Below are positions 2,150 through 4,409 of a stretch of DNA of 6,168 nt, piece by piece. The first letter of the stretch is position 1, and every line of letters begins with the position of its first letter. The notes below the pieces were generated by a model. The model was not told the origin of the DNA. It worked only from the letters and a program-made list of their open reading frames with translations, and ran no database searches. Made by a program: the position numbers and the translations under genes. Origin of the DNA: a bacterium (GTDB lineage Bacteria; Blakebacterota; Blakebacteria; Blakebacterales; Blakebacteraceae); NCBI GenBank assembly GCA_025774205.1, contig JALGWK010000129.1, positions 1 to 6,168 of the forward strand. Reading direction: 5' to 3'.

Positions 2150-2623
2150 ATGGAAAACGGAGGCACTCAGCTCCCGGAGAGGGCGGCCCGGGTGGTCGCT
2201 CTTCTCCTCGGGCTCCTCTTCTTCGCGGGTGTGGTCGCCAAGGTCTCCGACTGGGAGGCAACCCGCGAGGCAATGACTGTCTACACCATCATCAGCTGGC
2301 TCCCCCCCGCTCTGCCCGCCGCGGGCAGCCTCGCGGTGGAAGCGTTCATGTCGGTGACATTGATCCTCACCCCGACCTGGCGACGATTCGGTCTCCCCTC
2401 CGCCTCGGCCTTTCTGGCCGCTACCGGGGTGATGCTGGCGCTCGAGACACTCAGCGGCGGCGGCGGGGACTGCGGCTGTCTCCCCTTCCTGCCGCGTGAC
2501 ATCAGCTGGCTGGCGGCGGGGCAGAACGCGGCCGCAGCGATCTTCCTCTTCTCGCTCTGGCGCTATCTGGAGGATGGAGAGGTGGTGGAGACGACTTCGG
2601 TCTCCAGGAGCCTGTCGGAGTAA
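2150..2623 (+). CDS. MauE/DoxX-like four-helix redox-associated membrane protein
   Basis: The protein has 157 residues and four predicted membrane helices at about 13-31, 52-72, 83-101 and 118-138. KVSDWEAT (31-38) follows helix 1, a glutamate (E64) sits in helix 2, and a cysteine pair GDCGC (C108, C110) sits in the loop between helices 3 and 4. This order and the CGC motif match the methylamine-utilisation MauE family. Characterised MauE works with the thioredoxin-like MauD in maturing the disulfide-rich small subunit of methylamine dehydrogenase. MauE-like proteins elsewhere are generally taken as membrane partners of thioredoxin-fold proteins that move electrons or disulfides across the membrane. 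No methylamine dehydrogenase gene is visible here. It is second in an operon with a cytoplasmic dehydrogenase and convergent, 28 nt apart, with a membrane-anchored thioredoxin-like gene that is its obvious candidate partner. The charged tail after residue 139 is cytoplasmic or disordered. Confidence 0.8.
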   Translation: MENGGTQLPERAARVVALLLGLLFFAGVVAKVSDWEATREAMTVYTIISWLPPALPAAGSLAVEAFMSVTLILTPTWRRFGLPSASAFLAATGVMLALETLSGGGGDCGCLPFLPRDISWLAAGQNAAAAIFLFSLWRYLEDGEVVETTSVSRSLSE

Positions 2624-2651
2624 GCCACCGGCTGCGGTCCGCGCTGGCATC

Positions 2652-3182
2652 CTACCGCGGAGATGTCTCCCGGGGATAACTGATCGAAGCGATCGTGCCG
2701 CCCTGATTGAGACTGACCATCACCGGCACCCGCGTGATACTCAGCTCCCGGCCCGCTTCAGAGGGAACTCTGACGATCCCGATCCCCAGCTGGATGCCCC
2801 GTCGATAGGCGTCCATGAACACCGCCCGGGGCATGCCATCAGAGCTGAGGATCATCCAGAGAACTTCCTCCGGACGCTCGAACTCCTCCATCGAACCGGA
2901 CTCGAACGCCTCGACCATCGTCATCATATCACCCGCGCAGATATCGCAGGTGGGACTGACGATCATGATCATCCGGCGTCCCCGGGCCGCCTCAGCCAGG
3001 GAGAGGTCATCACCCGCAACTGTTAAACCGGCGATATCGGGGAGAGGGCGACCGGAACGCAGTCCGGGGTGGGCCGCGGTATTGATATAGGAGAAGACGC
3101 TGAAGATGACGAAAAGGGCGAAGCTCACGAGGGCAAACCTGCCCCAGAACCTCTTCTTTCCCTTTCCTGAACCGTCTGTCAT
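2652..3182 (-). CDS. Membrane-anchored thioredoxin-fold protein, TlpA/MauD-like, CDIC active site
   Basis: The protein has 176 residues. A short basic N-terminus (GKGKKRFWGR) leads into one hydrophobic segment at about 15-33, an uncleaved anchor or signal peptide. A thioredoxin-like domain follows: SGRPLPDI (43-50), strand MIMIVSPTCDIC with the CxxC pair C79/C82, and RVPVMVSLNQGG (151-162), where P153 is the expected cis-proline opposite the active site. The catalytic cysteines therefore face the periplasm or cell exterior. Proteins of this type reduce or exchange disulfides in exported substrates and need a membrane electron donor. The MauE-like protein encoded convergently next door is a plausible one. 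The ATG at 3182 is supported by GGGAGG (3187-3192) with a 4-nt spacer. The protein is transcribed divergently from the PCDC protein gene, with 147 nt between them. The assignment to the thioredoxin fold is firm; the TlpA versus MauD subgroup is not. Confidence 0.82.
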   Translation of the reverse strand: MTDGSGKGKKRFWGRFALVSFALFVIFSVFSYINTAAHPGLRSGRPLPDIAGLTVAGDDLSLAEAARGRRMIMIVSPTCDICAGDMMTMVEAFESGSMEEFERPEEVLWMILSSDGMPRAVFMDAYRRGIQLGIGIVRVPSEAGRELSITRVPVMVSLNQGGTIASISYPRETSPR

Positions 3183-3186
3183 GCGT

Positions 3187-3192
3187 CCTCCC
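3187..3192 (-). promoter_or_regulatory. Ribosome binding site of the thioredoxin-like gene
   Basis: GGGAGG on the minus strand lies 4 nt before the ATG at 3182 and decides this start. Confidence 0.7.
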
Positions 3193-3243
3193 GGGCCGTT
3201 TCAGGGCGATGGTGATCGTAGCGGATGAGACGATCCTCCACAA

Positions 3244-3268
3244 CCCGGAGAAGCCGGGCCGGCCGGCT
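3244..3268. repeat. Two overlapping, mutually exclusive GC hairpins in the divergent intergenic region
   Basis: CCCGG (3244-3248) can pair with CCGGG (3254-3258) around a 5-nt loop. AGCCGG (3252-3257) can instead pair with CCGGCT (3263-3268) around a 5-nt loop. The two stems share 3254-3257 and cannot form together. On the minus strand they would lie in the leader of the thioredoxin-like gene if its promoter is near 3290-3310. There is no T-run, so a simple intrinsic terminator is unlikely. Any regulatory role is inference. Confidence 0.3.
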
Positions 3269-3273
3269 CCCGC

Positions 3274-3302
3274 TTGAGGCTGTCGAACTCTCACTGTAGT
3301 AT
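3274..3302 (+). promoter_or_regulatory. Candidate promoter of the PCDC protein gene
   Basis: TTGAGG (3274-3279, 4 of 6 bases of the -35 consensus) is followed after 17 nt by TAGTAT (3297-3302, 4 of 6 of the -10 consensus). Transcription would start near 3309. The -10 overlaps the palindrome GTATA-AGCG-TATAC (3299-3312). On the opposite strand that palindrome contains TATACT, a good -10 for the divergent thioredoxin-like gene but without a recognisable -35. Confidence 0.4.
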
Positions 3303-3329
3303 AAGCGTATACAACAATGGGGTATCATT

Positions 3330-4409
3330 ATGGGTTGGGTAGCAACGGGATGGCAGGGAACCATGACAGATAAAAATTTGTTCGCCCGTCACGAGGTGAC
3401 CCGCAGTGACAGATCGGACCGACAGATGAGACGGACCCGGATCGGCCTGTTCCCGATCTCCATCGCGCTGGTCGCGATGACCTTCCTGGTCGGCTGGTCT
3501 GCCGATCCTTCCGACCAGCAGCAGCGGATCCGCTCCCGGTTCATATTTACCGGGAATACCCTCGGATACATCGATCCGTGCGACTGCACCGGTGGTCTCC
3601 TGGGCGGCCTCGACCGGCGGATGTATGCCATCGAGGAGCGTCGCGAAGAGGATCTGCCGGCCATCCTCTTCGACCTTGGCAATATCTTCGAAACCGCCGG
3701 TGGCAGACCGATGACAGAACTGGGTCGACGGCAGGCACGTTTCATCTCCGACGAGATGGAACAGATGGGTTACAGCTTCGTGGCCCTCGGATATCGCGAC
3801 CTGGCCTTTTCGGCGGAATTCCTGGCCGAGTACCTCCCCGACCTGGAACACCCCCCCCTGCTGACCAACCGCGCCGAGGGAGCCGAGCTCGGTTTTGAGA
3901 CCGTACCCAGAATCCGGCTGGAACTGGGCGGGCTCATCATCGATGTCTTCAGTGTGGTGGAACCCCAGATCCTTGGGAACGACGGGGAAAGCCTCGCGTC
4001 CCGGTGGGAGGAGATCCTCACCGAGGAGCTCGAACGCTCCTCCAACGGCGCTGATCCGGCCGACGTGCAGATGGTGATCGCGAACGTCCAGTGGGGGGTT
4101 TCCGAGGCGATGCCCGAGTGGTATCCGCAGATCGACATCATCATCAATGGGACCTGGATGCTGCCCCGCCAGGCCACCAGGATAGGGAATACGGTGGCAA
4201 TGACGGCGGCTGCCAAAGGGCAGATGCTGTCCACGCTCGATATCCAGGCCTATCCCAGGGAGAACCAGCGGGAGGGCCGCCCGACGATCATCGGGTTCCA
4301 GGGACTCCAGCTGGCGCTCGACCCTGCCAAACCCTCAGCGCCGGAAATCAAATCGAGGATGGTCGCTTTCCGGGATCAACTGATCAGGGACGGACTGATC
4401 CTCCCCTGA
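3330..4409 (+). CDS. Exported calcineurin/5'-nucleotidase-like protein with PCDC motif and degenerate active site
   Basis: The reading frame gives 359 residues. A basic stretch RRTR (34-37) and a hydrophobic segment (38-56) form a signal peptide or membrane anchor, and the rest is extracytoplasmic. The order of FTGNTLGYIDPCDC (73-86), LGGLDRR (91-97), ILFDLGNIFE (112-121), ALGYRDLAF (152-160), ANVQWG (251-256) and INGTWM (272-277) follows that of UshA-type metallophosphoesterases (DxHG, GGxxR, GD, GNHE, HxG, GHxH). The metal-binding Asp and His residues are replaced at nearly every position. C84 and C86 form a CxC pair. I therefore infer a non-catalytic or redox-repurposed relative rather than an active phosphatase; the fold call rests on motif order only. 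Start choice is open. ATG 3330 is the first in frame after a stop; ATG 3363 has AGGGA just upstream at short spacing; ATG 3426 would give a compact signal peptide. Residue numbers here count from 3330. It is divergent from the thioredoxin-like gene, which may act on its cysteines. Confidence 0.72.
   Translation: MGWVATGWQGTMTDKNLFARHEVTRSDRSDRQMRRTRIGLFPISIALVAMTFLVGWSADPSDQQQRIRSRFIFTGNTLGYIDPCDCTGGLLGGLDRRMYAIEERREEDLPAILFDLGNIFETAGGRPMTELGRRQARFISDEMEQMGYSFVALGYRDLAFSAEFLAEYLPDLEHPPLLTNRAEGAELGFETVPRIRLELGGLIIDVFSVVEPQILGNDGESLASRWEEILTEELERSSNGADPADVQMVIANVQWGVSEAMPEWYPQIDIIINGTWMLPRQATRIGNTVAMTAAAKGQMLSTLDIQAYPRENQREGRPTIIGFQGLQLALDPAKPSAPEIKSRMVAFRDQLIRDGLILP

Follow-up and report, generated by a model that had tools for sequence, protein, structure and literature searches.

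A candidate extracytoplasmic thiol redox module of MauE-like, TlpA-like and Cys-form UshA-like proteins in Blakebacterota

Background

Three neighbouring genes in a 6,168-nucleotide stretch of a Blakebacterota genome (the window) each encode a membrane-bound or exported protein with a close pair of cysteines, which raises the question of whether the three proteins act together in thiol chemistry outside the cytoplasm and, if so, in which role each of them acts. A sequence-only reading of the window had linked a MauE-like, a TlpA-like and an exported PCDC-motif protein in this way, with the last as client or redox carrier of the other two. The PCDC protein is related to a family that the GOS selenoproteome of 2008 recorded under COG0737, with the motif CxU (PMC2398784), and that a 2026 review lists as NF041198/CxU (PMC13188914); no statement on the function of this UshA-like CxU family was found in the literature. 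A literature search on MauE with selenocysteine or with MauD/disulfide also yielded no relevant paper.

Locus features and gene arrangement

The open reading frames of the three genes were confirmed, and the features of the locus are as follows.

2150..2623, plus strand: MauE-family integral membrane protein, 157 aa, about four transmembrane (TM) segments, one CGC pair (PF07291, 48.8 bits, E 1e-12; alignment of relatives)
2471..2479, plus strand: CGC motif of the MauE protein, residues 108-110, in the TM3-TM4 loop, predicted to be extracytoplasmic by the positive-inside rule
2652..3182, minus strand: TlpA/ResA-like thioredoxin-fold protein, 176 aa, N-terminal membrane anchor, one CxxC (AlphaFold model and Foldseek)
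2937..2948, minus strand: CDIC motif of the TlpA-like protein, residues 79-82, at the start of the active-site helix (alignment and model)
3183..3329, no strand: 147-bp head-to-head intergenic region between the TlpA-like and UshA-like genes, same layout in loci L021 and L023
3330..4409, plus strand: Cys-form UshA-like (PCGU family) protein, membrane-anchored, 359 aa (NF041198, AlphaFold model, PDB matches, family alignment)
3579..3587, plus strand: PCDC motif with the CxC pair (CDC, residues 84-86), the second Cys at the family's selenocysteine position (alignments)

Each of the three proteins contains exactly two cysteines, and these make up the close pair pointed out by the sequence-only reading. 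For two cysteines placed at random, the chance of a spacing of two or three would be about 0.011, 0.025 and 0.023 for the three proteins, and jointly about 6e-6. A rough reading of hydropathy and of the positive-inside rule would place all three pairs outside the cytoplasm.

The convergent and divergent arrangement that had been described was also found: the MauE and TlpA-like genes stand tail to tail, and the TlpA-like and PCDC genes head to head, 147 bp apart. The intergenic region common to the latter two could allow co-regulation. The location of the genes on alternating strands, rather than in a single operon, counts against one module.

Conservation within the phylum

The sample of the phylum comprised four genomes, i.e. 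that of the window (G000) and three others (G001, G002 and G003). The trio is syntenic in all three informative genomes (G000; G001, JALGVQ010000158; G002, JAGLTZ010000321), with the identical order UshA-like gene, TlpA-like gene on the opposite strand, and MauE gene; the contig of G003 ends 201 bp upstream of its TlpA-like gene, and the MauE-TlpA pair is present in 4/4 genomes, each time with gene ends that converge or overlap. All six cysteines are invariant across the relatives in the phylum, despite divergence of the proteins to 36-54% identity. Thus, within the phylum the neighbourhood is conserved and the CxC pair does not vary among close homologues, the two points on which the sequence-only reading had staked the link.

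The genome of the window contains a single MauE match, a single PCxC protein and a single TlpA of this type, and the chance that the sole MauE would lie no more than 5 kb from the PCxC gene is estimated at about 0.3%. A transmembrane reductase of the DsbD/CcdA type is encoded in each of the four genomes. The flanks of the trio are partly conserved as well, with recurring genes for an aldo/keto reductase and a 2,4-diaminopentanoate-dehydrogenase-like protein, and some of the synteny may therefore reflect slow rearrangement. In the window, the divergent 2,4-diaminopentanoate dehydrogenase relative (1132-2136; 263 bits, cut-off 400) lies directly 5' of the MauE gene and is conserved beside the trio of G001, as is a DUF1858-DUF438-hemerythrin protein (2-928). 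Furthermore, G001 encodes a second PCDC paralogue of about 53% identity (L022:979-2133, contig C259), with no MauE or TlpA gene on its 5.4-kb contig; its neighbours are a gene with a CBS domain and one for a large repeat protein.

The PCDC protein

The PCDC protein matched NCBIfam NF041198 with 85.7 bits (E 2.5e-24) over model positions 4-273 of 519, the curated equivalog cut-off being 275, and by this profile it is a divergent, shortened relative that stands outside the equivalog. Family matches were found in many phyla in a survey of 386 genomes, which provided 78 loci of UshA-like relatives and 83 alignable sequences; no relative was found in viral contigs. In the family alignment, the PCDC motif coincides column for column with PCGU/PCGC, and GG(L)xRR comes next; of the 83 aligned relatives, 41 have a CxC pair and 31 a CxU pair in which TGA encodes the second member. 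All four PCDC-type copies of the phylum have Cys rather than Sec as the second member of the pair, and tRNA-Sec (anticodon tca) was found in three of the four genomes, including the host. The host also encodes several redoxin-family matches with one in-frame TGA each (G000 contigs C364, C355, C513 and C491), which are probable selenoproteins, since tRNA-Sec is present (L204).

The protein has one N-terminal hydrophobic segment, and its AlphaFold model (pLDDT 85, pTM 0.81) was aligned by VIA with 5'-nucleotidases (Z 29.7, 277 residues, rmsd 2.7) and with SoxB structures (Z 28, 268 residues); a PDB sequence search with profiles of the TlpA-like and PCDC proteins gave no match. The C-terminal 5'-nucleotidase domain is missing, and none of the seven metal ligands of the phosphatase (DxH, GD, GNH, H, GHxH) is kept, with N L N Y R N T in place of D H D N H H H. 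The degenerate phosphoesterase-like fold that had been proposed from the letters was thus borne out as a metallophosphatase domain fold whose metal ligands are gone. Two aligned loci retain all seven ligands, and both are without a CxC/CxU pair; against the window protein with none of the seven, this indicates that the pair accompanies the loss of the metal site.

The pair-bearing loop is the least certain part of the modelled domain (residues 87-90, pLDDT <50), and this low confidence would fit a mobile loop at a redox site better than a structural bond. It bears on the first half of the client-or-carrier idea, i.e. that MauE and TlpA merely mature a structural disulfide of the PCxC protein. 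The precedent for such a role is the MauE/MauD pair, which supports the maturation of the disulfide-rich methylamine dehydrogenase subunit; the PCxC protein has a single Cys pair, this pair sits at the selenocysteine site of the family, and the model shows little order in its loop, as would be expected for a redox site, and we consider a mere maturation client very improbable. The second half of the idea, a redox protein, was retained: with no other Cys and with the pair at the Sec site, the PCDC protein is more likely the redox-active member than the client.

The MauE and TlpA-like proteins

The MauE protein belongs to PF07291 by its score (gathering cut-off 27). Its CGC motif precedes the last TM segment and is invariant among its relatives, and nearly all of 30 canonical MauE seeds have CGC at the same place. 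MauE was found in 130 of the 386 genomes surveyed. A selenocysteine form of MauE, considered for G003, was rejected, since the in-frame TGA lies away from CGC and stands in place of the Gly codon of G27; this MauE relative (L162:734-1162, G003 contig C282, minus strand) carries either a nonsense mutation or a MAG/assembly error.

The TlpA-like protein had no Pfam, NCBIfam or PDB sequence match, and the redoxin/AhpC-TSA sequence profiles did not recognise it (Pfam; PDB sequence search). Its AlphaFold model (m50d342f63257, four relatives as input; pLDDT 79, globular part about 90) retrieved TlpA/ResA/Etrx2/CcmG thioredoxin folds by Foldseek, including 4grf, 2yp6 and 3ia1 (E 3.6e-7 to 1e-5). C79 and C82 are located at the start of helix 80-95 in the model, and P153, at the cis-Pro position, is invariant in the relatives. 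As judged from the model, the protein is of the TlpA/ResA-type thioredoxin fold. The MauE and TlpA proteins of the phylum are both divergent, which counts against the module.

Linkage in other lineages

The sequence-only reading had proposed a count of MauE-like and TlpA-like genes near homologues of the PCDC protein; the outcome was positive for the phylum and for one further phylum, and negative as a general rule. A MauE scan of the 78 loci returned the phylum itself, genome G137, and locus L032 at E 0.0013; MauE beside a UshA-like gene was found in one lineage, that of G137, among the 75 loci outside the phylum. Clustering of the 711 neighbour ORFs of the 78 loci produced generic families only, with no general conserved neighbourhood, and none of the thiol genes is a regular neighbour across the 75 outside loci.

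The gene order in G137 is DUF1573, rhodanese, MauE (CGCF), UshA-like PCGU protein with a cytochrome c554 domain, and 4Fe-4S membrane protein. The order DUF1573-rhodanese-MauE-UshA(PCGU) was found in 6/6 MauE-positive genomes of the family of G137 and its sister family, which belong to another phylum; the seventh genome of these families (G390) had no match to the MauE of the operon. Loci L144, L242, L243, L244, L245 and L231 have this operon, mostly followed by the 4Fe-4S membrane protein. The operon resembles a self-standing periplasmic pathway of sulfur or redox chemistry.

The rhodanese within this operon is relevant to a sulfur-handling function, the main rival to a redox module, in which the PCxC protein would act like SoxB or as a SoxY-type carrier with sulfane sulfur or persulfide on the CxC pair, and TlpA and MauE would be regenerators like SoxW and SoxV. 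The structural alignment with SoxB fits this function as well. The metal ligands of SoxB are lost in the PCDC protein, the SoxB profile TIGR04486 was matched only at E 0.11, which does not identify a SoxB, and the window is without a rhodanese or other sulfur gene; sulfur handling by the trio is judged unlikely.

For TlpA, the scan of UshA-like loci with a redoxin profile found four loci outside the phylum, one of them fused and one overlapping; the profile was home-made and would miss a divergent TlpA such as that of the window. The fusion joins a TlpA/AhpC-TSA domain to a UshA-like CDC domain (G069 contig C92, L143:7907-9352), and 3' of it a DUF1573 protein (9349-10875) has a CxxC and a membrane part that appears CcdA-like by eye; the fusion was not found in the only congener examined, the genome of which is 76% complete. 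The overlap, in G004, is of a TlpA gene with a UshA-like gene that carries a cytochrome c554 domain.

Of the proposed functional link, the part that held is thus the MauE-adjacent operon (6 genomes) and the TlpA fused or adjoining (2 genomes), and the part that did not is a general neighbourhood. By gene context, the link of MauE/TlpA with UshA-like proteins is real but sporadic, and the thiol partners that serve the CxC/CxU protein seem to differ between lineages. The same data bear on the possibility that the three genes are coincidental neighbours, MauE and TlpA forming a separate unit for general membrane thiol supply beside an unrelated PCxC gene kept there by slow rearrangement in a small, close lineage. 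Such an origin would suit the alternating strands, the sample of only four genomes, the partly conserved aldo/keto reductase and dehydrogenase neighbours, and the lack of a family-wide neighbourhood; the MauE-UshA(PCGU) operon in another phylum and the fused and overlapping genes elsewhere argue against it, and we regard coincidence as improbable.

Proposed function of the trio

On balance, the trio probably constitutes a small extracytoplasmic thiol redox module, with TlpA as the electron-exchange partner of the PCxC pair and MauE at the membrane end; our confidence in this reading is slightly better than even. In this redox module, the PCDC protein would be a metallophosphatase domain of the 5'-nucleotidase/SoxB type with its ligands lost and a redox-active CxC in their place, the pair sitting on the loop that follows strand 1, at the entrance to what was once the active site; the PCxC protein would be the working redox protein or a terminal carrier. 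The membrane-anchored TlpA-like thioredoxin would be its direct partner, exchanging electrons with the CxC and most likely keeping the pair reduced, and MauE would form the membrane end of the chain via its own periplasmic CGC; a transporter of the DsbD/CcdA type could also feed the relay. We infer that the three proteins act in sequence, in the order MauE-TlpA-PCxC, and likewise the direction of electron flow: a reducing relay is favoured because a Sec-capable CxU site implies an active state with reduced selenolate or thiolate, and because TlpA-type proteins are usually reductants.

For the family as a whole, the gene neighbours suggest that UshA-like proteins are extracytoplasmic redox proteins. 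We tentatively extend this, with somewhat less than even confidence, to the view that the family consists of redox enzymes active outside the cytoplasm, with a Cys-Sec or Cys-Cys pair in place of the metal centre of the phosphatase fold, and is served by MauE and/or TlpA, the trio being its all-cysteine form. The MauE linkage in two phyla, together with the TlpA fusion and overlap in others, would provide named, testable redox partners for a selenoprotein family; the absence of the metal site where the CxC/CxU pair is present suggests conversion of a phosphatase fold into a redox protein, and the trio hints at MauE partners outside methylamine metabolism.

Comparison with known systems

The TlpA-like protein shares with TlpA, ResA, CcmG and Etrx2 the fold, the N-terminal anchor and the CxxC at the helix start, and it differs from them by a CDxC without WC and by its lack of a Pfam or PDB sequence match. 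As in the MauE/MauD system, a CGC-bearing membrane protein of the MauE family adjoins a membrane-anchored thioredoxin-fold CxxC protein; in contrast to that system, the genes are on alternating strands, the thioredoxin is TlpA-like with no identifiable MauD, the partner has a single CxC, and no methylamine genes were found within the window. By analogy, the trio may resemble SoxB with SoxW and SoxV (CcdA plus TlpA-type), where a thioredoxin-like protein, together with a membrane thiol carrier, serves a periplasmic protein of the 5'-nucleotidase fold; unlike the Sox pathway, the window protein is without a metal site, MauE would replace CcdA, and the window contains neither SoxYZ nor any other Sox gene. 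With the NF041198 (PCGU)/COG0737 CxU family, the window protein has in common the N-terminal metallophosphatase fold, PCxC/PCxU in register, GGLxRR, and export; it deviates from NF041198 in its score (85.7 versus 275 bits), the missing C-terminal half, the seven changed metal-ligand positions, its Cys at the Sec position despite the tRNA-Sec of the host, and its pairing with MauE and TlpA.
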